39,429 nucleotides of DNA, from contig JABURQ010000116.1 of NCBI GenBank assembly GCA_014762625.1, positions 1-39,429 of the forward strand, written 5' to 3'. A program made the position numbers and the translations under genes. Source of the stretch: Planctomycetaceae bacterium. Lineage in GTDB: Bacteria; Planctomycetota; Planctomycetia; Planctomycetales; Planctomycetaceae. This document shows, in pieces, positions 5,425-21,704 of this stretch (position 1 is its first letter; the number at the start of each line of letters is the position of its first letter). The notes beneath the pieces are model-generated. The model worked only from the letters and a program-made list of their open reading frames with translations, was not told the DNA's origin and searched no databases.

Positions 5425-5550
5425 ATCGCCCTTGTCTGAATCAGATTGTCTCTTGTTACTGCATCATAAAAACTCAGGGAAACTCATTCCAGATCAATCC
5501 TTTCAACCTTCTATCGAGGCGTCAATGCTACGCATCCACCTTCCAATACC

Positions 5551-5597
5551 TAAAAAGAAAACCTCCCCTCGCCCCGGCCGTAGCCGGGGCTGGGGAG
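5551..5597 (-). terminator. Rho-independent terminator of the minus-strand cassette
   Basis: On the minus strand a GC-rich hairpin (GCCCCGGC paired with GCCGGGGC around the loop at 5579-5582, with an outer CTCCCC/GGGGAG arm) is followed by a T-rich tract (5552-5561 as A-rich plus strand). It lies just downstream of the nuclease stop at 5609, where the cassette should end. Confidence 0.8.
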
Positions 5598-5608
5598 ATT
5601 GGGGATTC

Positions 5609-6427
5609 TCAACCGGACCACTTCCGACACGGTTCCTGAAACGGGCACCCGGCACAGTTCATCGGAGACGGCACCGGGTAAAACAGGCCCGACCTCATCC
5701 CCGACCAGACTTGGGCCAGCATGACTCGGGTGCGGGCGACTTTCTGTTGATCGGTCGCGACGGGATACCGTTCGATTGTCGGCTGTTTGGTCTTGGTCAC
5801 CACAGCAAACTCCAGTTGCAACGGTTTGCCGGGAACCAGATCTTTGACCAGTTCACCGTACAGCAATAATTGCTCCGCCGACTGTTCTGCCTGCATGCTG
5901 CTCCATTTCGAGCGGGACGTCTTGAAGTCGGTCACCACCACGGCGTCGTCAGTTTCCACAATCAGATCGAGACGGGCCAGGATTTCGGGACAGTCTTCGA
6001 TCAGCGATTGTCTCAGTTCTTCTTCCACACCCAACACGGTTCCCTCCGGTCGGGCAATGTCGCTTTCCAGGAATGTCCGCAACACTCGTTCGGCCAATTG
6101 TCCGAGGGAATCGAGGCTGTCGGATTTCCCAAACCGGATGTTGTCCTGATCTCTCTGTTTCCATTCCTCCTGATAAGCGGCTAACAGCAGATCAAGGTCG
6201 GGTTCGGGGTTTCCCATCAGGCGTTCCCGAAACCAGTATTCCAGAGCCGTGTGAATGGCCGAACCGAACACCAGCGCGGCCGAGACCGTCTTTTCCGGGA
6301 GCTGCTCGATGTAACGGAAGTAATATCGCAGCGGACAACTGCGATACGTGTTGATCGCCGAGTAGGAGAGATAATCTCTCACCACCGGCGGCGAACGTTC
6401 CTCCGAGAGAACGGGAGTGGTGATCAT
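5609..6427 (-). CDS. PD-(D/E)XK nuclease, RecB/Cas4-like, with Fe-S cysteines
   Basis: A 272-residue stand-alone nuclease of the RecB/Cas4/AddB-C type. Core residues are visible: His59 in GSAIHTALEY, Asp154 in ARLDLIV, Asp167 and Lys169 in TDFKTS, and a Q186-x3-Y190 motif. Cys31 (RSCPLRYYF) plus Cys258, Cys261 and Cys267 (NCAGCPFQEPC, C-x2-C-x5-C) match the four-cysteine 4Fe-4S cluster of Cas4 and AddB. Such enzymes trim DNA ends in recombination or spacer processing. No cas gene or CRISPR array is present, so a recombination role is more likely. The start has AGGAGGT 5 bp upstream, and its ATGA overlaps the stop of the upstream gene, so the two are translationally coupled. It is the last gene before the terminator. 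Confidence 0.9.
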   Translation of the reverse strand: MITTPVLSEERSPPVVRDYLSYSAINTYRSCPLRYYFRYIEQLPEKTVSAALVFGSAIHTALEYWFRERLMGNPEPDLDLLLAAYQEEWKQRDQDNIRFGKSDSLDSLGQLAERVLRTFLESDIARPEGTVLGVEEELRQSLIEDCPEILARLDLIVETDDAVVVTDFKTSRSKWSSMQAEQSAEQLLLYGELVKDLVPGKPLQLEFAVVTKTKQPTIERYPVATDQQKVARTRVMLAQVWSGMRSGLFYPVPSPMNCAGCPFQEPCRKWSG

Positions 6428-6870
6428 CGGCGACCTCCTGTCTCGGCCCCTTTCAGGTCGTCGATCAGTTGACTGGCTTCCCGGAGACTCAAATCTTCGG
6501 GGCGTTCCACCTGAAACTGCTGAGAAAGAATCCCGTTCAGATCGAGTCGTTGCTGGTTGGCGATGGCGTAAATGGCCTTCACCTGGCTCTGAGTCGCCCG
6601 ACGTCCATTGCGGGAGGCCGGTTGTTGATGACTGTGGAGACCGTTCCCGTTGGACGAGGCCCCGTTCTGAGAGGCGGTTCGACCGAACAGTTCGGTCTCC
6701 ACAGCGTCACGAGCCTGACGAAACAGTTGCTGGATCTGGGACTGCAATTGTTGGGGTTGCTGGACGAGCGTGGTGTCGAGTTCCTGTTGGAGACTGACCG
6801 ACGCTCCACGGGACCCGTAATCGGGCTCGCCCACTTTCTTGGAAATGTTGACGTTGAGTGTGAGTGGCAT
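6424..6870 (-). CDS. Protein with a C-terminal helical domain typical of annealase-associated proteins
   Basis: A 148-residue protein starting at ATG 6870 (AAGGA upstream; the frame opens earlier at 7005 but without a ribosome site). The N-terminal part (MPLTLNVNISKKVGEPDYGS) is followed by a Gln-rich helix (QQPQQLQSQIQQLFRQA) and a Ser/Asn/Gly linker. The last ~50 residues (ATQSQVKAIYAIANQQRLDL through EASQLIDDLK) resemble the short helical tail found at the end of ERF/Rad52-like single-strand annealing proteins and other phage or plasmid DNA-binding proteins. The annealing domain itself is absent. It may bind DNA or recruit the nuclease, which starts within its stop codon. Function is inferred. 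Confidence 0.65.
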   Translation of the reverse strand: MPLTLNVNISKKVGEPDYGSRGASVSLQQELDTTLVQQPQQLQSQIQQLFRQARDAVETELFGRTASQNGASSNGNGLHSHQQPASRNGRRATQSQVKAIYAIANQQRLDLNGILSQQFQVERPEDLSLREASQLIDDLKGAETGGRR

Positions 6871-6916
6871 AGAGGAATTCCTTGTGTTGAGGATGTTGTG
6901 GGAAACGGACCGGCTT

Positions 6917-7138
6917 TCAGCGGTGACGGCGAGGGTGAACAGGCCGACGATGAACGCGAACCGGTTGAGGGCGTGTGATCTGTTGCAGACGGATATCGCC
7001 GCCATGCACCATCAGCGCCAGTAAGACCATCAGTACGCCCAGAAACACCAGCCAGGATTCGGCCAGCAGACCGAACAGACCAGCGAACAGTGCGGAACCG
7101 ACGACATACAGTTGATTGAGTTTATGACGAGCTCCCAT
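6917..7138 (-). CDS. Small two-helix membrane protein
   Basis: A 73-residue protein with a strong ribosome site (AAAGGAGG about 7 bp before ATG 7138), which supports it as a real gene. Two hydrophobic helices (LYVVGSALFAGLFGLLA and WLVFLGVLMVLLALMV) are followed by a basic Arg/His-rich tail. The family is not recognised. It lies in the middle of the DNA-metabolism cassette between the clamp-like gene and the annealase-tail gene. A role in membrane association of the complex would be conjecture. Confidence 0.62.
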   Translation of the reverse strand: MGARHKLNQLYVVGSALFAGLFGLLAESWLVFLGVLMVLLALMVHGGDIRLQQITRPQPVRVHRRPVHPRRHR

Positions 7139-7171
7139 CGGAGCCTCCTTTCATTGAGAAGTTGAGGTTCG

Positions 7172-7183
7172 GTAATAAATTAC
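7172..7183. repeat. GTAATAAATTAC palindromic site
   Basis: One of six GTAA-N4-TTAC-like dyads in the window. It lies in the short gap between the clamp-like gene and the small membrane-protein gene. Confidence 0.35.
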
Positions 7184-7191
7184 GGGAGTCA

Positions 7192-8580
7192 TCACGCCTG
7201 CAGCGTGTTCAGCTTCTGGAGCGAGTCGATCGTGTTGCGGACGATCTTCGCCTGTTTCTTTTGCCCGCGCAGGGCGGTGATCAGATCCTGAACTTCGGAT
7301 TGCAGGTCTTTCAGGTTCGATTTGATTGTCGTGGCTCGTTCGATGAGCTGTTCGACGGTGTCGATCTCTGAGGCGGACTCTGCCGAGGTTTTGGATTGGG
7401 ATGCAGGCTTGGGCATGACATTTTGCTTTCGGTTGGAGGTGGATAAAGCAGAAACAGCCTCTCCCCGTCGGCGAGGAGAAGCCACACGTTCGATCTCTTC
7501 CGGACGAGGCGACGGGTCTCCCGACAGCCCCCTCCAGAGATAGGTTTGGGAGGAGTCTCGCGCGACGAACAAGAGGTGGTCACAGATATCGATCCGGGAG
7601 AGTCCCAGATCGGGGAGTCGGGCGAGATACGTCACGTCGGTTTGAAAATGAGATTCCGGTCCCTGGCGGGTAGAATTACTCAGAATCCATTCCTGTGTGG
7701 GCGACTTTTCCCGTTCCGCACACCGTATGGCGACCGCTCCGTTCAACTCGACAGCGGCAATTTGCTTTTTCTGTTGAGAGCTTCGCGGAAGACGGTCCGC
7801 CAACCACCGGCGATCGGTGTCGTCGATCGTCAGTGTGGTTTTAATATCCGAATGCGCAGGAACGATGGCGTCGATGTCGGGATAGCGGGCTTCGGTTTCA
7901 ATGGGCAGCGCCACTCGCCACGATCCGAACCGGAACACCACCTGCTCGTCCGTCTTACCGACTTCGACCGGACCACTCTCGGCCCCTTTCCGGAGAGTGG
8001 CCGATCGGAAACAGCGGGAGGTGGGGATTAACACCTCCTCGTCCCACGGCCAGTCAAAACCATGCTGGATCAGTAATTGCCGACTATCGGTGGCGACCAG
8101 ATCCTGTTTGCCGCCTCGCAGACACAAACAACCCAATGCATACCGGGTGGAGTTCACATCGGCGGTTTGGCAGGCTTCCCACAAGGCGGGGAACAGTCGC
8201 TCGCCGTGAGCCGTCCAGCGATCGACAGCCGGGAACGTGGGACACTCCTTTGAAGGGCCGTCGGGATAGCATTGTTCGACGGGCGTTCCGTTTTCCGTCC
8301 AGCTGACACAGTTCTGCTCCCGTTCCATGGTGAGCGTCAGATCGTCGGCGCCAGAATCCACCAACTCCGATAAGGCGAGCCAGGGAAGCGAACAGAGCGT
8401 GAAATCAAACTCGCCCACTTCCCGATACTCCAGCCAGGCGCCATCGTGGGTGGCGGAGATCGTGAAGGCGTCTCCCAGTTCGGAGAACGTCACCACGGGA
8501 CCGGAGTCCCGTGGTTTGAGGTTCAGGGTTTGCTTGGCCAGCGTCAGAAACGCTTTCAACGTACGTCGATTCAGTAACAT
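7192..8580 (-). CDS. DnaN-like sliding clamp homologue with a C-terminal coiled coil
   Basis: A 462-residue protein that reads as a divergent DNA polymerase III beta clamp. Three clamp-type domains can be followed: 1-118 (ending KECPTFPAVD), 120-241 (STRYALGCLCL, then LVATDSRQLL, VLIPTSR and ARYPDIDAIVP, the most diagnostic stretch), and 242-355 (TLTIDDTDRRWLADRLP, then ending TYLWRGL). A further ~105 residues not found in ordinary clamps follow: a linker with SPRRRGE, then a predicted coiled coil (about 405-462). It would encircle DNA and tether partner enzymes. The start overlaps the stop of the upstream small gene by 10 bp, and no independent ribosome site is evident, so it is probably translated by coupling. 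The clamp assignment is by motif reading; the tail's role is unknown. Confidence 0.78.
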   Translation of the reverse strand: MLLNRRTLKAFLTLAKQTLNLKPRDSGPVVTFSELGDAFTISATHDGAWLEYREVGEFDFTLCSLPWLALSELVDSGADDLTLTMEREQNCVSWTENGTPVEQCYPDGPSKECPTFPAVDRWTAHGERLFPALWEACQTADVNSTRYALGCLCLRGGKQDLVATDSRQLLIQHGFDWPWDEEVLIPTSRCFRSATLRKGAESGPVEVGKTDEQVVFRFGSWRVALPIETEARYPDIDAIVPAHSDIKTTLTIDDTDRRWLADRLPRSSQQKKQIAAVELNGAVAIRCAEREKSPTQEWILSNSTRQGPESHFQTDVTYLARLPDLGLSRIDICDHLLFVARDSSQTYLWRGLSGDPSPRPEEIERVASPRRRGEAVSALSTSNRKQNVMPKPASQSKTSAESASEIDTVEQLIERATTIKSNLKDLQSEVQDLITALRGQKKQAKIVRNTIDSLQKLNTLQA

Positions 8581-8777
8581 ATTACGGACTCACTTTCCGG
8601 TTGTTCGACGAGCGCGACATTCCGTTGCCGGTCGAGCTGATCCCAGTCGAGGATCAGTTCTTCGGCAGTCCGCTCATCGGAAGGAGACGGGACAAACTGG
8701 AAACCGCGATGGGCGATTTCCCGGACAGATTCACCGGTGACTGCCGCCACGGTTCGATTCAGTTCAGCTTGAGTCAT
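8571..8777 (-). CDS. Small conserved planctomycete protein of unknown function
   Basis: A 68-residue protein from ATG 8777, with GGAG about 6 bp upstream. It begins MTQAELNRTVAAVTGESV and contains EIAHRGFQF and an acidic tail with LILDWDQLDRQR. This arrangement resembles a small hypothetical protein I recall from planctomycete genomes; no function is known to me. It overlaps the clamp-like start. A terminator-like hairpin (8791-8817) lies directly upstream of its ribosome site. Confidence 0.68.
   Translation of the reverse strand: MTQAELNRTVAAVTGESVREIAHRGFQFVPSPSDERTAEELILDWDQLDRQRNVALVEQPESESVICY
8574..8585. repeat. GTAACATATTAC palindromic site over the clamp start
   Basis: Perfect 12-bp dyad that includes the clamp-like start codon at 8578-8580. 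It is related to the GTAA-N4-TTAC sites at 7172 and 11257. Confidence 0.3.
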
Positions 8778-8790
8778 GGGGGTCTCCAAT

Positions 8791-8817
8791 AAAAAAAGAC
8801 CGGCTGAAAAGCCGGTC
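8791..8817 (-). terminator. Intrinsic terminator or attenuator inside the cassette
   Basis: On the minus strand a perfect 8-bp stem (GACCGGCT / AGCCGGTC, loop TTTC) is followed by seven T residues. It sits only 13 bp before the coding start of the 68-residue gene, leaving no room for a separate promoter. Expression of that gene and the downstream clamp, annealase-tail and nuclease genes would therefore depend on read-through or a regulated hairpin. Confidence 0.75.
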
Positions 8818-8854
8818 CTGGGACGGGAAGGGAAAATTGTGGTGCGAGGTCGCG

Positions 8855-9199
8855 TTACTTCGCTTTGGTGCGCCGCCGTTTCGTCAGCTTCTTCTGATCA
8901 CTCTTCTGGGAGGAACCATTACCCCGCGACTCTTCGAGCGAGAGTGGTTCGCCATGGAAATCTTCCGCAGCAGGCAACACGCTCGATAACGGGCGCTCCA
9001 AGGAGAGACGTTCGGTCTGCTCGCGTAACTCGTCCGCGAGATCTGTCAGTCCTTGTTCTTCCAGATCCTGAGCTTTTCGCAGCAATTCGACTTTGCGGTC
9101 GCTCTGCTGCGCCAGAAACTGCTGCTCAAAGTCGAGCGCAATGTGGGTCGTAAAAAGGGCGTAAAGACGACGGCTTAACGCCCGAAATAAATTCGGCAT
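8855..9199 (-). CDS. Small coiled-coil protein with a basic tail
   Basis: A 114-residue protein from ATG 9199, with GGAGG about 8 bp upstream. The first half is helical and likely coiled-coil (FEQQFLAQQSDRKVELLRKA, then LADELREQTERL). It ends in a Lys/Arg-rich tail (KKLTKRRRTKAK) that could bind nucleic acid. The family is not recognised. It lies between the DUF932 gene and the internal terminator. Confidence 0.62.
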   Translation of the reverse strand: MPNLFRALSRRLYALFTTHIALDFEQQFLAQQSDRKVELLRKAQDLEEQGLTDLADELREQTERLSLERPLSSVLPAAEDFHGEPLSLEESRGNGSSQKSDQKKLTKRRRTKAK

Positions 9200-9272
9200 G
9201 CTGTAGTCCTCCAGATGGTTAAGTTGGAATGAAGTGAGTGCGAATCCGTTCTGGCCGATTGACACGAACGCG

Positions 9273-10010
9273 TCAGGCGGTCAGCTGACAGACTCGATCG
9301 AGTAAGCCGTGCAACCGTTGGGACCGTTTCGGGAGTGACGTCAGGCTGCGACCTTTCAGTCCTTCCGTGAAGGCGTTGAACAGCCGCCAGGCCGTTTTCC
9401 CGTCGAGACGGAACTCCTCGTGTTGCGGCTGTTGCCATTCCTGGATCACGGTTGGTAAGGCCGTAACGGGCAACGCGCGGGATTCAACGGCCCGGATCAT
9501 TACATCGTGGGCCGTCTTGTCGCGCAATCGGTGCGATTTGTAGGCTTCCACCCGCTGATCCTGTTGGACGCGGAGATCGTTGAGACGACCGACGGCTTCG
9601 TTGACGATGCCGGGTAAGTCCCGTTCGATGAACCGGGTATGCTTGCGGGCCAACACGACATCCCCGAAGAAGCTGAGGTTGTCGCAACAGAAGACCTGGT
9701 TGCCGATGGCGATTCCGGCGGGGAACGACTTATCGTGACTGTTCCGCAGACCGATCACGAGACCGTAATCGTCGGCGTTGTGGCCGTTGGTCAGTTCCAT
9801 CAGACCGAAATAGCGTTGGCCGTCTCCCCACAGGGCGTGCGCCTGTTGAGAGATCTGAAAGCCAAACCCGTCGATGGTTCGTTCGACCAGGTTGAGGAGG
9901 CGGGTATGGGGAACGGGGACCCAGGTTTTGGTGCGGGCCGGTGTGGGGCAGTCATCGACCGCGGTGCGATCGACGGCTTTACTGCCGCAGTGGAGTAACA
10001 GATTGAGCAT
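9273..10010 (-). CDS. DUF932 family protein
   Basis: A 245-residue protein from ATG 10010, with AAAGGAGA just upstream. The central part (YFGLMELTN, then YGLVIGLRNSHDKSFPAGIA, GNQVFCCDNLSFFGD and LARKHT) is the signature of DUF932, a family widespread on plasmids and phages and often encoded near recombination genes. Its biochemical role is not established. It is early in the minus-strand cassette, and the strong ribosome site suggests it is well translated. Confidence 0.85.
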   Translation of the reverse strand: MLNLLLHCGSKAVDRTAVDDCPTPARTKTWVPVPHTRLLNLVERTIDGFGFQISQQAHALWGDGQRYFGLMELTNGHNADDYGLVIGLRNSHDKSFPAGIAIGNQVFCCDNLSFFGDVVLARKHTRFIERDLPGIVNEAVGRLNDLRVQQDQRVEAYKSHRLRDKTAHDVMIRAVESRALPVTALPTVIQEWQQPQHEEFRLDGKTAWRLFNAFTEGLKGRSLTSLPKRSQRLHGLLDRVCQLTA

Positions 10011-10059
10011 AGAGAATCTCCTTTCAAAGTAGGATAAAATGGGACAATGGGACGCAGAA

Positions 10060-10578
10060 TCACTCGGAATCTGCGGGAAGCGGGGGAACATCTTCCGATC
10101 CCGGGAGTGACGCTGGGGACGACGCCAGTAAACGGGGACGATCGGTGGCCAGCTCTTCGATCAGGATGTCGTTGAGGGAACCGTTTTCGTCGGTTGGTCG
10201 TCGCTGCAGCACCAGGAGCGCCACGGCGACCGGAATCAGGCACAGAGCCAACGTGCCCAACTGCCACAGGATCGGTGCGAGCAACGATTCACGGACACAG
10301 TGAGCGGCAATCTCGCGGCGTTCCTCTTCCAGCGCATCGCGCTGGAGAGTGAGTGATTGTTGGGCGGCCAGGAACTCACGTCGTGATTCGGCGTCGGCTT
10401 CCACCAGACGTTCGGTGGCGACGGTGGCTTCGCGGTTAAGGCGGGCCATTTCTTCGTTTTGCCGGGATTGTTGGTGCATGGCCTGTTCGGCGATGCGGGA
10501 GACACGGGCCGATTCACTCTGACATCCCGTGATCAGGCTCGTCACGAGGAACAGCGGCAGTAGCTTCAGGGATTTCAT
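10060..10578 (-). CDS. Lipoprotein with coiled coil and C-terminal membrane segment
   Basis: A 172-residue protein from ATG 10578, with GGAGGT about 7 bp upstream. A lipobox (LITGC, Cys19) follows a hydrophobic signal. A charged helical stretch of about 70 residues (MARLNREATVATERLVEADA onward, ending EEERREIA) should form a coiled coil. A hydrophobic segment (LLAPILWQLGTLALCLIPVA) precedes an acidic, Pro-rich tail. Having both a lipobox and a later membrane segment is unusual, so the Cys may not be lipidated. Function unknown. Confidence 0.65.
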   Translation of the reverse strand: MKSLKLLPLFLVTSLITGCQSESARVSRIAEQAMHQQSRQNEEMARLNREATVATERLVEADAESRREFLAAQQSLTLQRDALEEERREIAAHCVRESLLAPILWQLGTLALCLIPVAVALLVLQRRPTDENGSLNDILIEELATDRPRLLASSPASLPGSEDVPPLPADSE

Positions 10579-10720
10579 GGGGTGGGGACCTCCGTTGAGA
10601 CAGGACACGGGACAACAGACATTGCAGCGCGATCCGCAAGCGGCGTTCGTGCAGGAACACGAACACCAGGACCAGGACGGTCAGCGACAGACAGATCGTC
10701 AGCGCCGGGATATCGGGCAT
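10514..10720 (-). CDS. Small membrane protein at the head of the cassette
   Basis: A 68-residue protein from ATG 10720, with a near-consensus AAGGAGGT 5 bp upstream. One N-terminal membrane helix (LTICLSLTVLVLVFVFL) is followed by an Arg-rich stretch (ERRLRIALQCLLSRVLSQRR) and an acidic tail. Its end overlaps the start of the lipoprotein gene by 65 bp. The family is not recognised. Confidence 0.6.
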   Translation of the reverse strand: MPDIPALTICLSLTVLVLVFVFLHERRLRIALQCLLSRVLSQRRSPPHEIPEATAAVPRDEPDHGMSE

Positions 10721-10740
10721 CGGCACCTCCTTACAGGGAG

Positions 10741-10777
10741 AAGAAAAAGAATCACCCCCCAGCCCACGGGGCTGAGG
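10741..10777 (-). terminator. Terminator-like hairpin in the leader of the cassette
   Basis: On the minus strand CAGCCC-CGT-GGGCTG, extended by outer G/C pairs to about 10 bp, is followed by a T-rich stretch (TTCTTTTTCTTCT). It lies between any promoter in 10780-10970 and the first ribosome site of the minus-strand cassette, so it could act as an attenuator. Confidence 0.5.
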
Positions 10778-10976
10778 GCTCAACAGCGGGAAAACGGCTT
10801 CAAGGATGCATTTTGAGGCGTTCTCGCACACCGGCTGACGGGTAAGCCAGCCGTCACTCCATATGCCACGTTTTCAGGGAGAATTTAGCGGGAGAGACGG
10901 TTCCGAGGAGTAAATCGGCCCCGGATGCCGTGTGGTCTTTCCAAACGCTTGCGCTGCGGAGGGGCGATTTCGTACA

Positions 10977-11240
10977 ATGGATGAAAAGGAGGACGAAGAG
11001 ACCACTAACCCTGAGGGAACTTTCAATATTCAAAGATCGAAAGACTGTTTGATGTCCTTGCCCGGAAAAATGCGAAGCCTGAAAGTCCATCTCACCGACG
11101 AAGAGTTTCGGACGCTCCACATCGCCACCACCCTCTCTCCGTATGAGACCCAAAGCGAGTTTCTCGCGGGAGTGATTCTCTCCGCCGCCGATGAAATGAT
11201 CGCGCAGTTCCGGAATCCTAATCCGCGATTGAAGGAATGA
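10977..11240 (+). CDS. Small divergent protein, possible ribbon-helix-helix regulator
   Basis: An 87-residue protein from ATG 10977, divergent from the cassette. An acidic N-terminus (MDEKEDEETTNPEG) is followed by MRSLKVHLTDEEFRTLHIA, a strand-then-helix pattern like ribbon-helix-helix (CopG/Arc) repressors, then a second helix (ETQSEFLAGVILSAADEMIA). Starts at 10932 and 11052 are also possible. Its position suggests a regulator of the cassette, but DNA binding is inferred from a short pattern only. Confidence 0.5.
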   Translation: MDEKEDEETTNPEGTFNIQRSKDCLMSLPGKMRSLKVHLTDEEFRTLHIATTLSPYETQSEFLAGVILSAADEMIAQFRNPNPRLKE

Positions 11241-11504: not shown

Positions 11505-12683
11505 ATGAAATCAAACTCAGCAAACAGATTGATCCCCGTCTTCACGATAGGTCTTGTGCTGCTTGCGTTGTTCCTGTGGAAGAATTCTTCTGAAACTCCT
11601 CTCCCCGAAGGCATCAGCTCCGAAGACTATGAAAGCGTTAGGACCTCTCTAAAAAAAGCTACCGGCACAGAACCGACACAGGCCGAGGTTTTATTTACGT
11701 TGGCAAAATCGTTGGAGTCGCAGGGCGATTATGACTCAGCTGGTCGGTGTTTTGAGGCCGTCTCTGGGAGCGACTCTCATTATGGACTCCGTGCGTTACT
11801 GGAGTCTGGAAAGCTGCAGATCAAGCTCAATCATGCGACCGCAGCTGAAAGCTCGCTCAGGAAATTTCTGGAATACGCGGATCAGGATCCCGATATCAAA
11901 AATTCACAGATTGCCGAGGCATTGGACTGGTTGAAATATTTGATGAGTATTGAGTTGCGATTTGAAGAGCGCACGCCGCTCCTGAAAAAGTTGCATGAAC
12001 TCGGATACGCCAAACCGCAACATTCCTTACAATATCTGTTCCCGCATCTTCTTCTCTGGAATTCCGTCAAAGGACGCGACAAGATTCGCGCCTGTCTTCA
12101 GGAGACGCCTGGTGACCCTCACTTGCTGATCGCTCACGGCAGGTATTTGACCGGAGCCGGGAAACTTGAGGACTCGCGGGTATTGCTGGAAGCTTTGGTA
12201 GAGAAAATCCCCACAAACCCTGCTTGTCTTGCTGCCTTATTGGAATGCCACTTCGAACGAAATGATTGGAACTCCTTTGAAGCCGTGCTGACAAAGTACA
12301 AACCAGAAGACAAAGAGGACTGGCTTCTGATGCTCATGAAAGGCGAATATGCTCTCCACGAGCAGCACTGGGAGCAAGCTGCCTTCCACTTTGAGAAACT
12401 CCTGGAAGAAGATCGGGGGAATGTCACTGCCTCCATGGGACTTGCTCAAGCTTACCAGGAACTCGGTCAAAACGAAAAGAGCGAGCAGTATCGGCAACAA
12501 ACGCGCGTCCTGTCCCGGATACGGCCCCAACTGAGTAAACTCTTGAAGGACGACCCAGAGTCGTTTGCCGAAATTGCACAGCAATGTGAGTCCATAGGTT
12601 ACGATGATGCGGCCCGCATTTTACGGCTTCAAGGGGCACTCATTGGCCAACAGGTTCCGTTTTTAACGGCTCCGGAGAATTGA
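11505..12683 (+). CDS. Membrane-anchored TPR protein
   Basis: A 392-residue protein with an N-terminal membrane helix (LIPVFTIGLVLLALFLW), then tandem tetratricopeptide-type helical pairs (AEVLFTLAKSLESQGDYDSA, then HEQHWEQAAFHFEKLLEED and SMGLAQAYQELGQNEKSEQY). TPRs mediate protein-protein contacts; the anchor places the repeats outside the cytoplasm. It is followed after 3 bp by a CRTAC1 lipoprotein gene, so the two are almost certainly co-transcribed and may form a complex. No Shine-Dalgarno is obvious at this start. Confidence 0.85.
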   Translation: MKSNSANRLIPVFTIGLVLLALFLWKNSSETPLPEGISSEDYESVRTSLKKATGTEPTQAEVLFTLAKSLESQGDYDSAGRCFEAVSGSDSHYGLRALLESGKLQIKLNHATAAESSLRKFLEYADQDPDIKNSQIAEALDWLKYLMSIELRFEERTPLLKKLHELGYAKPQHSLQYLFPHLLLWNSVKGRDKIRACLQETPGDPHLLIAHGRYLTGAGKLEDSRVLLEALVEKIPTNPACLAALLECHFERNDWNSFEAVLTKYKPEDKEDWLLMLMKGEYALHEQHWEQAAFHFEKLLEEDRGNVTASMGLAQAYQELGQNEKSEQYRQQTRVLSRIRPQLSKLLKDDPESFAEIAQQCESIGYDDAARILRLQGALIGQQVPFLTAPEN

Positions 12684-12686
12684 ATA

Positions 12687-14531
12687 ATGCGACTCGCCTG
12701 GTCGAAATCATGGTTCTGTCTCGCCATCACTGGTATGGGAGCAGTTCTGTTGATGGCGGGCTGTCCTCAGACCGAGCCGGAGAAAGAGTCAGGTGAGGAG
12801 CCTGATCTCGGAGCTTTGCTGAAATCTTCTCTATTGCAATCTCAAGAGAGTGTACAAAATCAATTGGGGCATCGCGACCTGAAGCTGGCATTCAGAGAAC
12901 TCGGTGCGGAAAACGGTTTCGAATTTACACGGTTTGATGACATCTCGGCACGTCGGCGAATCCTCGAAACCAATGGCGGAGGAGTGGCCGTCTTCGACTA
13001 CGATCGTGACGGTTGGCTGGACCTCTACCTGACGAACGGTTCCCCGATCGGGGAATTCTCCGTGGAGAACAATCATCCCTCTAAAATCTTTCGCAATCGC
13101 TTCGGCACTCACTATCGTGAATTGACAACCGAAGCCAACTTAATGCAACCAGGATTCGATACGGGATGTGCCGTCGGGGACTATAATTCTGACGGATTTC
13201 CGGACTTGTATGTCGCGGCCATCGGCGAGAATCATCTCTGGGTCAACAACGGGGATGGGACCTTCGAGGAACAGGCTCTCCAAACTGCTGATCAAGTCGA
13301 ACGTTGGACGACCAGCGTCGCGTTTGCTGACCTCAACTCTGACGGCATACTCGACATCTATGCTGTCAACTATCTCGATGAATCGCTCGAAACCCCCACG
13401 GTCTGCCCGAATTCTCAAAGTCCAGACGGCTTTGAGGGCTGCTCGCCGGCTCTATTTCAGGGAGTTCCTGACGACCTGTTTTGGGGAGATGGAGAAGGTG
13501 GTTTCCATCACGCCACTAACGATGCGGGGATCGGGCGACATCCGGGAAAAGGGTTGGGAGTGGTGATTGCCGATTTGGATCAGAATCGATCTCCGGAGAT
13601 CTACGTCGCGAACGACGGAGAACCCAATTTTCTGTTCGTCCGAAATCAGAGCGACTCCGGCACAACAGATTCCAACTCATCGAAAAAATCCGAGCTGTCC
13701 TATGAAGAAGTCGGCCTATTATGTGGTTTGGCTTTGAATGAACGCGGTTACTCCCAGGCCAGCATGGGAATCGCCTGTGGAGATTATGATGGAAATGGGA
13801 CGCAGGATTTGTATTTGACGCATTTTTTCGGCGATACCAACACGCTGTATGCCAACCTGGGAGAGCTGAAATTTGTCGAGCGAACGCGCGGTAGCGGGTT
13901 GGGAGCCAGCAGTCGAAATTACCTCGGTTTCGGGACAACTTTTTTCGACGCTGATAACGATGGTTGGCTGGACCTATTTGTGGCAAACGGTCATGTAGAT
14001 GACAGAACGTGGATGCCGGTTCCGGAGGATTATCGAATGTATCCTCAACTCTTTCTCAATGAACGCGATGGGCATTTCAAGGAAATCGGACAATCGCTGG
14101 AAGGCTACTTCAGCGAGCAATGGATTGGTCGCGGCGTCGCGACCGGCGATTTGAACCGCGACGGATTTGCCGATCTGGTTGTCTCACATCAGCTTGACCC
14201 CTCAATCATTCTTATGAACGAGACGGACAGTCGGCATCAATCGATCACACTGCGATTGATCGGGACCGAATCACACCGCGATGCATTTGGGGCTATCGTC
14301 GTCTTCCAGACAACGCCGCAGATTCAGACGCGGGAACTGGTGGGGGGAGGAAGTTTTCAGTCTGCCTCCGCTCTCGAAGTGCACGCCGGCCTGGGAACAG
14401 AAAGCATGATTCCGATCGAAATCAGATGGCCATCGGGGAATAAACAGCAGTTTGAAAACGTTTCAGCGGGCGACTGGGTCGTTGTGGAAAATCAGGGAAT
14501 CTATTCTCTGATCGCGCGACCCGGAGAATGA
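12687..14531 (+). CDS. CRTAC1-type FG-GAP/ASPIC-UnbV lipoprotein
   Basis: A 614-residue lipoprotein (lipobox LMAGC, Cys26). From about residue 80 it has repeated calcium-binding-like blades: DYDRDGWLDLYLTNG, DYNSDGFPDLYVAA, DLNSDGILDIYAVNYL, DYDGNGTQDLYLTHF and DADNDGWLDLFVANGHVDD. These are FG-GAP/VCBS repeats of an integrin-like propeller. The C-terminus is an ASPIC/UnbV domain (SHRDAFGAIVVF, then LVGGGSFQSASALEVHAGLG and IRWPSGNKQQF). Such proteins are common in Planctomycetes and are thought to act at the cell surface in binding or adhesion. A conserved cysteine pair lies between two blades (TVCPNSQ and EGCSP). GGAG precedes the start, which lies 3 bp after the TPR stop. Confidence 0.9.
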   Translation: MRLAWSKSWFCLAITGMGAVLLMAGCPQTEPEKESGEEPDLGALLKSSLLQSQESVQNQLGHRDLKLAFRELGAENGFEFTRFDDISARRRILETNGGGVAVFDYDRDGWLDLYLTNGSPIGEFSVENNHPSKIFRNRFGTHYRELTTEANLMQPGFDTGCAVGDYNSDGFPDLYVAAIGENHLWVNNGDGTFEEQALQTADQVERWTTSVAFADLNSDGILDIYAVNYLDESLETPTVCPNSQSPDGFEGCSPALFQGVPDDLFWGDGEGGFHHATNDAGIGRHPGKGLGVVIADLDQNRSPEIYVANDGEPNFLFVRNQSDSGTTDSNSSKKSELSYEEVGLLCGLALNERGYSQASMGIACGDYDGNGTQDLYLTHFFGDTNTLYANLGELKFVERTRGSGLGASSRNYLGFGTTFFDADNDGWLDLFVANGHVDDRTWMPVPEDYRMYPQLFLNERDGHFKEIGQSLEGYFSEQWIGRGVATGDLNRDGFADLVVSHQLDPSIILMNETDSRHQSITLRLIGTESHRDAFGAIVVFQTTPQIQTRELVGGGSFQSASALEVHAGLGTESMIPIEIRWPSGNKQQFENVSAGDWVVVENQGIYSLIARPGE

Positions 14532-14560
14532 GCGGAGACAGACTCTCCTGTCGAAGCGTA

Positions 14561-16465
14561 TCATCGTAGGTTTTCGGGTATCGACGCCGACTCGAGTCTC
14601 TGGATCATCAGGCGGCACGCTTCGGCTTCTGCGGTCCATCCGAGAGATTGATAGTATTTCAAGAGCCATTCCCGCAGCAACAGGTTTCCCGGATTGAGTC
14701 GGACGGCCTCTTCGACCGACCGGACTCCTTCCACAACACGCCCCAGATTCACGAGAGCATCGCCTTTCATGGCATAAAGCCTCGGATCCGTCACATCAAT
14801 TTGCAACAGTTGGTCCGTCAACTCCACGACCTCCGACCACTGTCGCGACAGATAGGCCACCTCCACCAAAGCGTCGAGCGCTTCTTCATTCGCATCCGCG
14901 GCTTCTACTGCTCTCCGTAAGTACTTCTGAGCGGTTGCCAGATGATTCTGTTGGCGGTGGTAATAACCCAGTGTCGTCAATAAACGATAGTCGTTTGAGT
15001 AAGACTGTAAGGCGTCTTCGAGCTGCCTCCCCAGGTCGGCAGGATAGGGAAGTCCATGTCTCTGATGGTACGAGTATGTCCCCAGCGCCATAATGCGTTT
15101 GAACTCTTCCGCTGAAAAATCGTCTTTCATCATTTCGAACAGTTCCAACGATCGACTGGAATCGTGGTTTTCCTCAACCTGACCCGCCTGCAGAGCGTCT
15201 TTGATGATGCGGTGGTCTGTCTGTGCGACGTGCGACATGTTGCTGGAGGAAAGGCTCGGCATGTGACAGTCGATACAACTGTTTTGACGGGAGTTGCGAA
15301 GTTTAAGCGGTGCATGACAATCCTCAGATTGATGACACTGGAAGCATTTCTCCCGATAGTAACCGATGCGATCATCGATGCCCGGAACGCCGTGGGGATC
15401 GTGACAGGTAATGCATCCCATTGTTCCTGAACTTCCTTGATAACATTGACTGTCCCGCATCTGCTGAACGTGGTTGATCGATTTGGTCTGTTTCTGTTCG
15501 TTGACTTCCGTTCCACGATCGAGGATCCCCCAGACATCGGACAGTTTCATTCCCGGGACGAAATCGAGATGACTACGACCGGGACGCAATACACGGGCGG
15601 ACGCAGAGAGATGGCATTGATAGCACACACTTTCCTGCCGGACGTGATCGAGTCGCGATGGATTGACGATCGGATCGTTAGCATCCGAGTTGTCCGGATA
15701 ATTTTCCCAGAAGAGGATGTGTTGCTCTCCAGGGCCGTGACATCGCTCGCACCCGATTGCCTGTTCATGGAACACGGGAGAGGGGAAACGATGGCTGTTG
15801 CGGACTTCCACCACGGGAAGTCCCGAATGACAACTCAGACATTCTTCGGTCACGCGTCGTCGAAATCCGCGGATATCGTCGGGGCGATAATTGGGCGCGA
15901 GATCCCAGCTTTCAGATTGTTGGTACCAGTTGAGGGGTGACATAAACAACAGGTCGTTGACCTGCAACAGATAGGCCTTGGCCCGTTGTCCCGAACCGAC
16001 CGCATAATTGACGGGATGGCGTTGTTCGTAGATGAGTTCCTGTTGTCCGTCATACATCTGTTCGAGATGCACGAGCGACTCACCATCACACTTCACCGCC
16101 AGCACCTTCCGGTCCCCTGGGATGGTGGTAGAGAGACACTCCGTCTTGTTCCAGATGTTCTCTCGGACTGTGCGGGTGGAATTCGCCATAGGATGAACGG
16201 CGTATCGTTCCGCGATCTCATTGTGACAGGCAATGCAGGCGTTACTGCCGACATATCCGGATTGAGACGGAGGCTCGTAATCAGATTGCCAAGCACGAAC
16301 CTGGTCCGGGAGAGTTGGAGAAATGGCTCGTCCGGAAGAAAAAAAAATCCAGATTCCCAGAAGACCTGTCGAACAGACAAAGAGAAGCAGAACAAGCACT
16401 CGGCGTCGATTCGTTCGTTGATGTTTTGGTTGATCATCCTTTCTCAAAGGGGAATTCCTCTGCAA
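14561..16465 (-). CDS. Multihaem cytochrome c (seven CXXCH) with C-terminal TPR region
   Basis: A 634-residue protein anchored by an N-terminal helix (residues ~22-42). Seven CXXCH haem motifs start at residues 77, 209, 239, 281, 351, 374 and 397 (CIACH, CLSCH, CERCH, CYQCH, CITCH, CFQCH, CIDCH). The spacing resembles the cytochrome c554/doubled-CXXCH families used in periplasmic electron transfer. From about residue 470 the sequence is TPR-like (LLTTLGYYHRQQNHLATAQK, then EALDALVEVAYLSRQWSEVV and LYAMKGDALVNLGRVVEG). Combining a multihaem domain with TPRs suggests docking to other TPR or CRTAC1 proteins encoded around it. It is convergent with the upstream CRTAC1 gene and divergent from the DUF1559 gene. 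Confidence 0.9.
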   Translation of the reverse strand: MQRNSPLRKDDQPKHQRTNRRRVLVLLLFVCSTGLLGIWIFFSSGRAISPTLPDQVRAWQSDYEPPSQSGYVGSNACIACHNEIAERYAVHPMANSTRTVRENIWNKTECLSTTIPGDRKVLAVKCDGESLVHLEQMYDGQQELIYEQRHPVNYAVGSGQRAKAYLLQVNDLLFMSPLNWYQQSESWDLAPNYRPDDIRGFRRRVTEECLSCHSGLPVVEVRNSHRFPSPVFHEQAIGCERCHGPGEQHILFWENYPDNSDANDPIVNPSRLDHVRQESVCYQCHLSASARVLRPGRSHLDFVPGMKLSDVWGILDRGTEVNEQKQTKSINHVQQMRDSQCYQGSSGTMGCITCHDPHGVPGIDDRIGYYREKCFQCHQSEDCHAPLKLRNSRQNSCIDCHMPSLSSSNMSHVAQTDHRIIKDALQAGQVEENHDSSRSLELFEMMKDDFSAEEFKRIMALGTYSYHQRHGLPYPADLGRQLEDALQSYSNDYRLLTTLGYYHRQQNHLATAQKYLRRAVEAADANEEALDALVEVAYLSRQWSEVVELTDQLLQIDVTDPRLYAMKGDALVNLGRVVEGVRSVEEAVRLNPGNLLLREWLLKYYQSLGWTAEAEACRLMIQRLESASIPENLR

Positions 16466-18692: not shown

Positions 18693-21600
18693 ATGTCCCA
18701 GCAAACTCCGATGAAAGGTGCAGTTTCGGAAGGAAATCGCGGACAACCTAAGCCGTTGATCCGCGTCTTCGTAGCCGTTTTGATCGGAGGGATCGGGCTC
18801 TTTCTAATCACGAAACGCTTCCGAATGTCAGACGAGAATTCCGACGCAACGGAATGGTTGCGTCTCTCGCGACAAGCTCTGCGTGACGATGATTATGCGT
18901 CTGCCGAGGAATATGCTCTCAATATCTCTCCCGCCAGCGAACATTGGGCCGAAAGTCGCATGATCGCAGGGGAAGCGGCAACTCAACTGGAGCGTTACGA
19001 CGACGCCGTGAGTCACTATGAAACCCTCGTACAGAGCGATTCCCAAAAGTCCGCTGAGGCATTATTCTACATCGGCGAGATTTACCGTCACGTCGGGAAA
19101 TTGACCCCGGCAGTTCAAGCCTATCGGGAGGTACTGGAAGAGAATCCCGACCATCTGCTGGCCCACCACCGACTTGCCTATCTGCTGGAATTAACGGGCC
19201 AACGCTGGGCCGCGTCTCCATACTTCCTATTTGTTTTACAAAACAATAACGCGACGATTCAGGATCTGATTTTATTTGGGGATCTGGAACATCCCCTCGA
19301 ACAACTCGATTATCTGGAACGCTGTCGAGAACAGGATCCCGACGATCCGCTCGTTCTATCAGCGTTCGCCGCCTATCACCTCTCCTACGGCAAGCTCGAA
19401 CTCGCATTTCCTCTGTTGAAGGAAATCGTCCGCAACGATCCGAACCTGATTCCCGCACAAGCGATGTTAGGAGAGGTCTTACTGGAACGCGAGCCCGATC
19501 AGTTTTTGAAATGGCATGAACGTCTTCCCGCTGCTGCCGACCGCGATGCGGAGATCTGGTATGTGCGGGGATTGTGGGCTCGCCAGCATCAACAGCTTGA
19601 GATGGCCATCCGTTGTTTTTGGGAAAGCGTGCGTCTGGAACCGACCCATCGTCGCGCTCTGTCAAACTTGTCGCAGAGCCTGAATTCGACCGAGAATCCA
19701 GCCGCCGGCGAATTCAGTGAACGGACGCGACAGTTCAACGAAATATCCCGATTGCTGAATCAGGTGGCCAATCGCGCCGGAGATAAGGCCAAAGTATTGA
19801 AACAACTCGTCGATCTGATGGAATCCACCGGACGCCTCTGGGAGGCATGGGCCTGGGCAGCTATCTCAAAAGAGCAGCTACCTGGCCACAGGTGGCCCAC
19901 AGAGGTGATTCAACGATTGACTCCGGTCCTGGATGCGAACACTCCGCAAGTCATCGATGCACAGAATCTGGCTCTGAAGCACGATTTCTCGAGCTATCCG
20001 GTCCCTCGTAGACTGTTATCCGTGAAGAGCGAGGAACCGCAAGCCATCGTAGAAACGTTGACCGACTCGCAAATTCGCTTCGAAGAAGTCGCCGATTCCG
20101 GAATCGATCTGATTTATTACAACGCTTCCGATCCCGAGACGCAGGGAGCCCGCATGTTTGAATCGAACGGTGGCGGCGTTGCCGTTCTCGACTTTAACGG
20201 CGATCAGTGGCCGGATCTCTATCTGACTCAGGGATCTGAATGGGCAACCGGTTCGGTGGAACCGAGCCCCTCAATGGAATATCAAGATCGACTTTATCGG
20301 AATGCTCAAGGAGAGAGATTTATTGACGTCACCGCTCAGGCCAACCTTCATATCCTGGATTTTGGCCAGGGGCCCACGGTCGGTGATTTCAATAACGATG
20401 GATTTCCCGATCTCTACGTGGCAAACATTGGTCGCAATCGTTTATTGATGAACAATGGAGACGGGACGTTTTCCGATGTCACGGCTTCGGCCAAGCTCAC
20501 CTCCCGAAAATGGACGAGTAGCTGCGCGATCGTTGACCTTAATGCCGACGGGCTCCCCGATCTGTTCGATGCAAATTATCTGACTGGTGACGGAATCTAC
20601 ACAGACATCTGCGAGGGACGAGCCTGCTCTCCCTCAAATTTTCCGGGAGCTGTGGATGACGTCTATTTAAATCGGGGAGATGGCCACTTTGAACTGATCC
20701 CGGACGCTTTGCCACAGCAGGACTCCAAAGGGATGGGAGTCGTCGCGGTGGTGCTTGAAGGCGATCGAATTCCGAGCCTGTTCGTTTCCAATGACCAGGT
20801 CCCCAACTATTTGATACAGAATCAAACCACTCCGGGTTCTCAGAAAATCGAGATCCGTAATGAAGCCTTTCTTCGCGGGCTCGCTTTCAACGAGGATGGC
20901 CTCCCCATGGCTTGCATGGGAATCGCGGTGGATGACGTCGATTCCAATGGACTGCTGGATTTGTTTGTGACGAATTTTCAGGACGAAGCCAACACACTTT
21001 ATCTGCAGGACTCTCCCGGACTATTCCGGGACTCCACGAGAGCGGCAGGGTTGTTTACACCGAGCTTCAATTTTGTCGGCTGGGGAACCCAGTTTCTGGA
21101 CGCGGATCTGGATGGCCATCCGGATCTGGTACTGGTGAACGGACACGTCGATGATTATCGCAGTCGAGGCCGCGGTTATCAGATGCCTCCTCAATTCTTT
21201 CGCAACATCGGACGCGGAAAATTCGAGGAACTGGACCCGGAAAACGTCGGGCCGTACTTTGGGAAAAAGTTCCTTGGCCGGGGACTGGCAAGATTGGACT
21301 GGAATCGCGACGGTCGCATGGAATTCGTGGTCTCGAACATTGGAGATCGAACATCCGTTTTGAAAAATCAGTCCGACATCGGCCACTGGCTGAATCTCCG
21401 TCTGATTGCGACACGAAGTTCGCGTGATGCCGTCGGAACCATCGTCACGCTCAAACTGGAGAATCGTTCCGTGCAGAAACAATTGACTTCTGGTGATGGG
21501 TACATGGCGAGTAACGAAAAGCTGCTTCAGTTTGGACTGGGGGATTCAGAGAGGATTCAAGAACTGGTGATCGACTGGCCCTCCGGGAATCAACAAATCG

Positions 21601-21704
21601 TGAGAGAGCCGCCTGTTGACTCCACTTTGGAATTTCTCGAAGATGCGGATTCAGCCACACTCTGGCAGGGGGTTTCTCCAACTTCGCTCAAGTTAAATCA
21701 TTGA
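18693..21704 (+). CDS. TPR-CRTAC1 fusion protein (first of a tandem pair)
   Basis: A 1003-residue protein with one N-terminal membrane helix (IRVFVAVLIGGIGLFLIT). Residues ~50-400 are TPR helices (WLRLSRQALRDDDYASAEEY, then AVQAYREVLEENPDHLLAHH and LPLLKEIVRNDPNLIPAQ). From about 460 there are FG-GAP blades (GVAVLDFNGDQWPDLYLTQG, DFNNDGFPDLYVANIG, DLNADGLPDLFDANYL, DADLDGHPDLVLVNGHVDD). The C-terminus is an ASPIC/UnbV domain (SSRDAVGTIVTL, then IDWPSGNQQIV). It joins in one chain the modules encoded separately by the genes at 11505 and 12687. It probably acts outside the membrane; the ligand is unknown. A conserved cysteine pair (DICEGRACSP) sits between blades. Confidence 0.9.
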   Translation: MSQQTPMKGAVSEGNRGQPKPLIRVFVAVLIGGIGLFLITKRFRMSDENSDATEWLRLSRQALRDDDYASAEEYALNISPASEHWAESRMIAGEAATQLERYDDAVSHYETLVQSDSQKSAEALFYIGEIYRHVGKLTPAVQAYREVLEENPDHLLAHHRLAYLLELTGQRWAASPYFLFVLQNNNATIQDLILFGDLEHPLEQLDYLERCREQDPDDPLVLSAFAAYHLSYGKLELAFPLLKEIVRNDPNLIPAQAMLGEVLLEREPDQFLKWHERLPAAADRDAEIWYVRGLWARQHQQLEMAIRCFWESVRLEPTHRRALSNLSQSLNSTENPAAGEFSERTRQFNEISRLLNQVANRAGDKAKVLKQLVDLMESTGRLWEAWAWAAISKEQLPGHRWPTEVIQRLTPVLDANTPQVIDAQNLALKHDFSSYPVPRRLLSVKSEEPQAIVETLTDSQIRFEEVADSGIDLIYYNASDPETQGARMFESNGGGVAVLDFNGDQWPDLYLTQGSEWATGSVEPSPSMEYQDRLYRNAQGERFIDVTAQANLHILDFGQGPTVGDFNNDGFPDLYVANIGRNRLLMNNGDGTFSDVTASAKLTSRKWTSSCAIVDLNADGLPDLFDANYLTGDGIYTDICEGRACSPSNFPGAVDDVYLNRGDGHFELIPDALPQQDSKGMGVVAVVLEGDRIPSLFVSNDQVPNYLIQNQTTPGSQKIEIRNEAFLRGLAFNEDGLPMACMGIAVDDVDSNGLLDLFVTNFQDEANTLYLQDSPGLFRDSTRAAGLFTPSFNFVGWGTQFLDADLDGHPDLVLVNGHVDDYRSRGRGYQMPPQFFRNIGRGKFEELDPENVGPYFGKKFLGRGLARLDWNRDGRMEFVVSNIGDRTSVLKNQSDIGHWLNLRLIATRSSRDAVGTIVTLKLENRSVQKQLTSGDGYMASNEKLLQFGLGDSERIQELVIDWPSGNQQIVREPPVDSTLEFLEDADSATLWQGVSPTSLKLNH

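Follow-up and report, generated by a model that had tools for sequence, protein, structure and literature searches.

A planctomycete gene cassette with a sliding-clamp paralogue, a Cas4/RecB-type nuclease and a candidate annealing protein as a possible accessory recombination module

Organisation of the cassette

The window analysed here is the whole 39,429-nucleotide stretch of contig JABURQ010000116.1 (positions 1 to 39,429, forward strand) from a Planctomycetaceae bacterium (assembly GCA_014762625.1), whose genome comprises 6.23 Mb in 208 contigs. It contains a cassette of nine minus-strand open reading frames (ORFs), all open, which runs from 10720 to 5609 and is closed by a strong terminator at 5551 (Table 1). 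Read 5' to 3' on the minus strand, the order is g9, g8, the DUF932 protein g7, g6, g5, the clamp paralogue g4, g3, g2, and the nuclease g1. The g5 and clamp genes overlap by 10 bases, and the g2 and nuclease genes by 4 bases. A second terminator sits between g6 and g5, and the cassette is therefore likely to consist of two transcription units. No polymerase, clamp loader, or replication initiator was recognised within it. The guanine-plus-cytosine (GC) content is 58.0% in the cassette and 51.7% in the rest of the window. The cassette exceeds its flanks by 6.2 points in the window and by 0.2–4.1 points in seven relatives, and a strongly foreign composition is not supported as a general feature of such cassettes. 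An earlier note on this DNA had described the nine genes with several overlaps, the terminator, the higher GC content, a three-domain DnaN-like clamp, an Fe-S PD-(D/E)XK nuclease, and a DUF932 protein, and each of these descriptions was borne out.

The clamp paralogue

By its profile matches, g4 is a DnaN homologue and paralogue, and any role as a working processivity clamp would be putative. A profile built from 28 cassette clamps finds solved beta clamps in the PDB (best 7rzm, E = 5e-8), and 6ams is matched across profile residues 5–334, which span the three domains (E = 3e-7). It also recovers 20 planctomycete DnaN proteins, among them the presumably replicative copy of the source genome (E = 2e-11, search size 5000); E. 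coli DnaN is not listed there. In addition, g4 matches the processivity factor family PHROG 947 (E = 2e-6), whereas no clamp match was obtained among named plasmids and phages at E = 1e-5. A match in genome G041 (L094) was rejected as a cassette clamp and left out of the profile; it lies at the start of a chromosome contig, behaves as DnaN, and is probably an ordinary DnaN.

Like the bacterial beta clamp, g4 keeps the core of the partner-binding pocket (R152, Y153, L155, T172, D173, L177, and P242 in E. coli numbering). In contrast to DnaN, the C-terminal Met-Pro of the pocket is lost in the window clamp, and among the 28 cassette clamps the Met is kept in 5 and the Pro in 7. Three conserved basic positions are lost as well: E. 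coli positions 24, 176, and 198 are basic in 19 or 20 of the 20 planctomycete DnaN proteins, and they are R, R, and K in the DnaN of this genome but L, Q, and S in g4. In DnaN, basic residues at these positions face the DNA. The paralogue is moreover a second copy beside the normal DnaN, and it adds an extension of about 100 residues with a long helix. A stretch of at least 50 residues matching this helix is present in 25 of the 28 cassette clamps and absent from DnaN. The structure model of g4 is weak, with a predicted local distance difference test (pLDDT) score of 36.6 from a two-sequence alignment, and was used for the C-terminal helix only.

The nuclease and the overlapping gene g2

The nuclease g1 matches PDDEXK_1 in Pfam (E = 1e-35) and the phage exonuclease family phrog_69 (E = 3e-27). 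Residues H59, D154, D167, K169, Q186, and Y190 and three cysteines are invariant in 13 of 13 alignment rows, and the first cysteine is kept in all 10 rows long enough to cover it. The motif residues and the Fe-S cysteines are taken to have the roles usual in such enzymes. Judged by its sequence, g1 is a phrog_69-family nuclease of Cas4/RecB type with intact catalytic and Fe-S residues, for which exonuclease activity and its polarity are predicted.

The 193-residue reading of g2 in the earlier note begins too early; its relatives begin at MPL.., which gives 148 residues and positions 6424–6870. The predicted structure (pLDDT 70) has a hairpin and a long helix, a linker, and a helical tail. Among viral folds in BFVD, the top match of this model is an ERF protein (E = 9.4e-4, template-modelling (TM) score 0.37, root-mean-square deviation (rmsd) 15.5), and further ERF entries stand at ranks 6, 10, 20, 27, and 40. 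For the helical tail, proposed earlier to be of ERF/Rad52-partner type, only sub-threshold GemA/DUF3072 matches were obtained. No g2 match was found in named phages at E = 1. Judging from the model, g2 may work like an ERF-type annealing protein, as a candidate whose annealing function is putative, and it is not classed as a member of ERF.

The genes for g2 and the nuclease are adjacent and coupled, as in two-gene exonuclease-annealase systems; with the starts of the longest ORFs, 17 of 31 loci show the overlap of 4 bases. Of 20 additional g2 loci, 17 have a co-oriented nuclease gene no more than 2.5 kb away, and g2 matches were found in 44 of 294 genomes of the phylum. Many clamp and g2 loci share a genome or come from sister species, and several are near-copies, so that the counts and correlations are non-independent. 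The protein distances co-vary strongly: the Mantel correlation is 0.83 for g2 and nuclease (n = 31; 0 of 2000 permutations as high), 0.85 for clamp and g2 (n = 25; 0 of 2000), and 0.58 for clamp and nuclease (n = 12; 3 of 2000).

Recurrence across planctomycetes

The window clamp as query gave a match in 32 of 99 genomes, its own included. Six of the matches, L094 among them as the one examined, are weak (E = 3e-6 to 2e-4) and could come from ordinary DnaN, so that 26 of 99 genomes remain, a lower bound from a single-sequence search that counts the source genome. Matches number one to seven per genome, with the maximum in G008; recent transposition of these seven copies was rejected, as their DNA is only about 70–84% identical. 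Across 28 genomes, 45 loci with a cassette clamp were compared. Of these, 33 have g5 upstream of the clamp, 25 have g2 downstream of it, and 13 have the nuclease downstream. Co-occurrence in other genomes, which the earlier note had set as a check, was therefore found, with the clamp keeping g5, g2, and the nuclease across loci. None of the clamp, g2, g5, nuclease, and c5 families occurs in 16 control regions of 20 kb each.

The 45 clamp loci carry three types of head: an AAA ATPase with c5 in 28, MoxR-vWA/DUF6744 in 10, and DUF932, as in the window, in 4, while three loci have no assigned head. A single fixed gene set is not supported, since DUF932 is one of three heads and the ten MoxR-type loci carry none of g5, g2, and the nuclease. 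Operons of bpMoxR, vWA, DUF6744-like, and clamp genes are seen in L069–L071, L082–L085, L089, L091, and L092, with several copies per genome; MoxR and vWA were not found in the stretch of L091 that was examined. Homology between c5 and a DUF6744 protein was rejected, as no match was obtained.

An ATP-dependent ligase lies near 3 of the 45 clamp loci. In L064, L068, and L093, this DNA ligase has a WGR domain and adjoins the clamp-nuclease genes, and in L068 it is split into two ORFs; its start is SWIM-like. Other ligase-WGR proteins occur near some g2 loci. The source genome itself has an AAA-type head without a clamp on contig C139 (L180, 1–11578). There and in L181, a DUF2997-AAA-c5-c8-g5-membrane head, with DUF1257 also in L181, is followed by an unknown 378-residue ORF, Prok-JAB, and ThiF/E1, a ubiquitin-like tail in place of clamp and nuclease. 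A cassette-like contig with g5, serine recombinases, and a JAB/E1 tail was also found (L161).

The clamp tree groups by host family, with 6 changes against a least possible 5 and a shuffled mean of 16.1. Broad transfer of the clamp between families is not supported by this tree, and because the tree follows host families, cassettes seem to have been gained, duplicated, and lost mostly within families.

Phage connections

Relatives of the nuclease occur in 59 phage records, from which four hand-picked neighbourhoods were examined. In TP-84 and vir526, an annotated annealing protein is encoded directly downstream of the exonuclease relative; Mimi has a RecA-like gene and a single-stranded DNA-binding protein (SSB) gene near it, and Teatealatte has neither an annealase nor RecA/SSB. 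No confirmed nuclease relative was found in IMG/VR. The nearest relatives of the DUF932 protein in named phages belong to Salinibacter phages (28% identity), and the one operon examined, in phage M8CC-19, reads DUF932-YqaJ-157-residue ORF-SSB-ERF. Among the neighbours of DUF932 in 11 IMG/VR loci (87 proteins), a primase family was met four times, and exonuclease, resolvase, and terminase families once each.

Phage exonuclease-annealase pairs of the lambda Red/RecET kind are among the closest known systems. The cassette resembles those of TP-84, vir526, and M8CC-19 in that a gene for an annealing protein, in the cassette the candidate g2, adjoins the exonuclease gene or shares its operon, and it resembles M8CC-19 further in having a DUF932 relative within the exonuclease-annealase operon. 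On the other hand, g2 is smaller and by sequence lies outside ERF, the window nuclease is of Cas4/RecB type instead of YqaJ, and the window adds a DnaN paralogue and g5 and lies on a chromosomal contig, outside any phage.

The head proteins of the commonest cassette type, AAA and c5, are also found on IMG/VR contigs and in one named phage, as an AAA/c5/DUF1257 module (Tunturiibacter phage Tunturi_3; L164 and L171 of IMG/VR). In contrast to the cassettes, this module has no g5-clamp-g2-nuclease tail in the IMG/VR stretches examined. The L171 contig, which carries portal, AAA, and c5 genes, has a 275-residue gene at 13289–14116 with a weak match to the clamp profile (31 bits) and no Pfam match.

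Remaining genes and surroundings

The DUF932 protein passes the Pfam cut-off (E = 1e-7, 32.2 bits against 23). Relatives of g8 head some DUF932-type and some AAA-type cassettes, and g9 has weak relatives in L022 and L023 and no Pfam match. The divergent gene at 10977–11240, proposed earlier as a regulator at the head of the cassette, had no counterpart in 54 loci searched by tblastn (threshold E = 0.01), and thus nothing links it to the cassette. A Pfam scan of nine flanking genes gave ordinary families, including a sigma factor and cation efflux, cytochrome, and FG-GAP/ASPIC/TPR proteins, and no phage or integrase family among these nine. FG-GAP/ASPIC proteins, some with TPR, lie at 12687–14531 and 18756–21704 of the window, and 11 matches occur across the genome. 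Two flanking proteins that were tested have only distant relatives in two genomes of the same genus (G001 and G002), and flank synteny in the genus is uninformative.

Table 1. Features of the cassette, in positions of the window.
Feature	Position	Strand	Description	Basis or remark
Terminator	5551..5600	-	intrinsic terminator closing the cassette	fold of 5548-5605: -36.8 kcal/mol, z -5.0; U-rich tail
g1	5609..6427	-	Cas4/RecB-type PD-(D/E)XK exonuclease family; Cys 31, 258, 261, 267	Pfam and PHROG matches
g2	6424..6870	-	148-residue candidate mini-annealase; 4-base overlap with g1	family alignment, structure model
g3	6917..7138	-	small membrane protein	transmembrane map of the family; where found in relatives, usually the last cassette gene
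g4	7192..8580	-	DnaN paralogue, 462 residues: beta-clamp part of about 355 residues and an extension of roughly 100	profile matches
Clamp helix	7198..7374	-	clamp residues 403-461, predicted single long helix	structure model, alignment
g5	8571..8777	-	68-residue conserved small protein, MTQxxLNRxVAxxTGE..GF	precedes the clamp in 33 of 45 loci
Terminator	8796..8819	-	internal terminator between g6 and g5	fold z -4.3
g6	8855..9199	-	ORF without demonstrated conservation	no DNA counterpart in L055
g7	9273..10010	-	DUF932 protein, head gene of the window-type cassette	Pfam DUF932
g8	10060..10578	-	lipoprotein-like membrane protein	relatives in L022, L023, L086, L147, L161
g9	10514..10720	-	small membrane-type protein, first gene	start with ribosome site

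Interpretation and competing explanations

The cassette is best read, with a probability of about 0.5, as an accessory phage-type recombination module in which an exonuclease-annealase pair has a clamp-derived hub of its own, with the clamp probably serving as scaffold. In such a module, the nuclease would resect a DNA end, and g2, co-translated with it, would coat and anneal the exposed strand. The DnaN paralogue with its helical tail would contact both partners and serve as their scaffold, either on DNA or at forks; for a few relatives this might extend to an ATP-dependent ligase. The DUF932 protein, whose relative shares a phage operon with an exonuclease and an annealase, would be an accessory. 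The earlier note had preferred a domesticated replication/recombination module. Its recombination half is supported by the conserved company, the gene overlap, the distance correlations, and the phage operons. Its replication half is not, given that no polymerase, loader, or initiator was recognised and that the clamp has lost basic charges of DnaN. The term domesticated is doubtful for a cassette with a patchy distribution, several copies in some genomes, and perhaps decay in a sister genome.

Several observations weigh against the recombination module. The nuclease accompanies only 13 and g2 only 25 of the 45 clamps, the ten MoxR-type loci lack both as well as g5, and the loci are not independent of one another. 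Positions 24, 176, and 198 are basic in only 3, 0, and 0 of the 28 cassette clamps, and because these conserved positions are lost, it is not assured that the clamp encircles DNA. A clamp-binding motif is not conserved in the partners and occurs in 0 of 54 g2, 0 of 39 g5, 0 of 41 DUF932, and 4 of 35 nuclease ORFs. The ERF fold matches of g2 are poor in geometry (TM about 0.3, rmsd about 15), no PDB fold was matched (best E = 0.64), and by sequence neither a Pfam ERF match nor an hhalign match to one phage ERF sequence was obtained. Moreover, the window nuclease fails to align with the YqaJ enzyme of the Salinibacter phage operon.

The main and serious rival, possible but held tentatively, is a modular anti-phage or anti-plasmid conflict system in which the clamp senses or poisons the replication of an invader, the nuclease is the effector, and exchangeable heads regulate; the two explanations are compatible. 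The swapping of heads (AAA with DUF1257 and c5, MoxR with vWA and DUF6744, or DUF932) and of tails, one with Prok-JAB and ThiF/E1 replacing the clamp, is consistent with this proposal, as is the patchy distribution with one to seven matches per genome. The Pfam family matched by the MoxR head takes its name from MoxR-vWA-beta-propeller ternary systems. Such ternary systems are treated as conflict systems in PMC7159879, and related clamp loci with the MoxR-type head share this MoxR family and vWA with them; the window itself has no MoxR or vWA gene in a hidden Markov model scan, and clamp, DnaN, exonuclease, and DUF932 do not occur in the main text of that paper. Neighbours of 25 cassettes (143 proteins) match 231 PADLOC families against 98 for controls (131 proteins), with 6 members of the control-protein family, 4 of the type I methylases, and 3 of the reverse transcriptases near cassettes and at most 1 of each in the control regions. 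A large HmaA/DrmD-like helicase is among the neighbours of L058. Beside the AAA-type head of L181, an OLD-like ATPase/TOPRIM gene is followed by a UvrD helicase gene (12435–16402), a Gabija-like pair. However, PADLOC models overlap (36 matches for the first neighbour alone) and controls also match GajA, mad, and kinase models, and the enrichment of defence genes is therefore suggestive only. In ten cassette proteins scanned (four from the window and six from relatives), PADLOC recognised only the nuclease, by Cas4/DruK-type models, and the AAA ATPase, by IetA, and the window clamp, g2, and DUF932 protein gave no match; the four window proteins scanned do not reproduce the genes of any named defence system. 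The head also occurs in a named phage and on IMG/VR contigs, of which one has a portal gene, and relatives of the nuclease and of DUF932 belong to phage recombination loci; these points, too, argue against defence. A more specific proposal, which is rather doubtful, is a clamp-centred modular conflict system of planctomycetes. In it, the DnaN paralogue would no longer need the processivity-ring function and would act as a hub, either recognising components of replication or mimicking them. Heads (ATPase or DUF932) would be exchangeable, as would tails: exonuclease and mini-annealase, ligase, or, where the clamp is missing, genes of ubiquitin-like conjugation.

That the cassette is a leftover of recombination genes from a prophage or integrative element, with no present function of its own, is unlikely. 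In G002, a single g2 match stands alone, and the 16 kb compared contain none of the other cassette genes; this is likely a decayed cassette, although decay is not the only explanation. The G001 cassette has DNA similarity to the window only at 5609–9928 in the 20 kb compared, some relatives have a serine or tyrosine recombinase gene nearby, and the GC content differs from that of the flanks. Nevertheless, all nine window genes are open and key nuclease residues are intact, identity to the G001 counterparts is 71% for the nuclease, 87% for DUF932, and 61% for the clamp, and the nine scanned flanking genes include no phage or integrase family. A vertically inherited housekeeping clamp for chromosomal repair would agree with the grouping of the clamp tree by host family, but it is highly improbable for a gene with strong matches in so few of the genomes, up to seven copies, and variable operon content.

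Significance

No published description of the gene set was found in a literature search of listings and abstract starts, with most subscription journals outside its reach. In passages of two papers, DUF932 and DUF1257 are absent (PMC7824862), and neither AAA nor planctomycete occurs, with 'clamp' only as the name of an author (PMC1779556). If the recombination-module reading is true, the cassette would represent an exonuclease-annealase module that brings a sliding-clamp paralogue of its own, and it would tie the uncharacterised DUF932, DUF1257/DUF2997 with an AAA ATPase, and DUF6744 to DNA processing. It also raises the question of whether a DnaN paralogue without the conserved basic positions acts as a protein hub. 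If the defence reading is true instead, these cassettes would represent a large, undescribed class of planctomycete conflict systems, with up to seven per genome.

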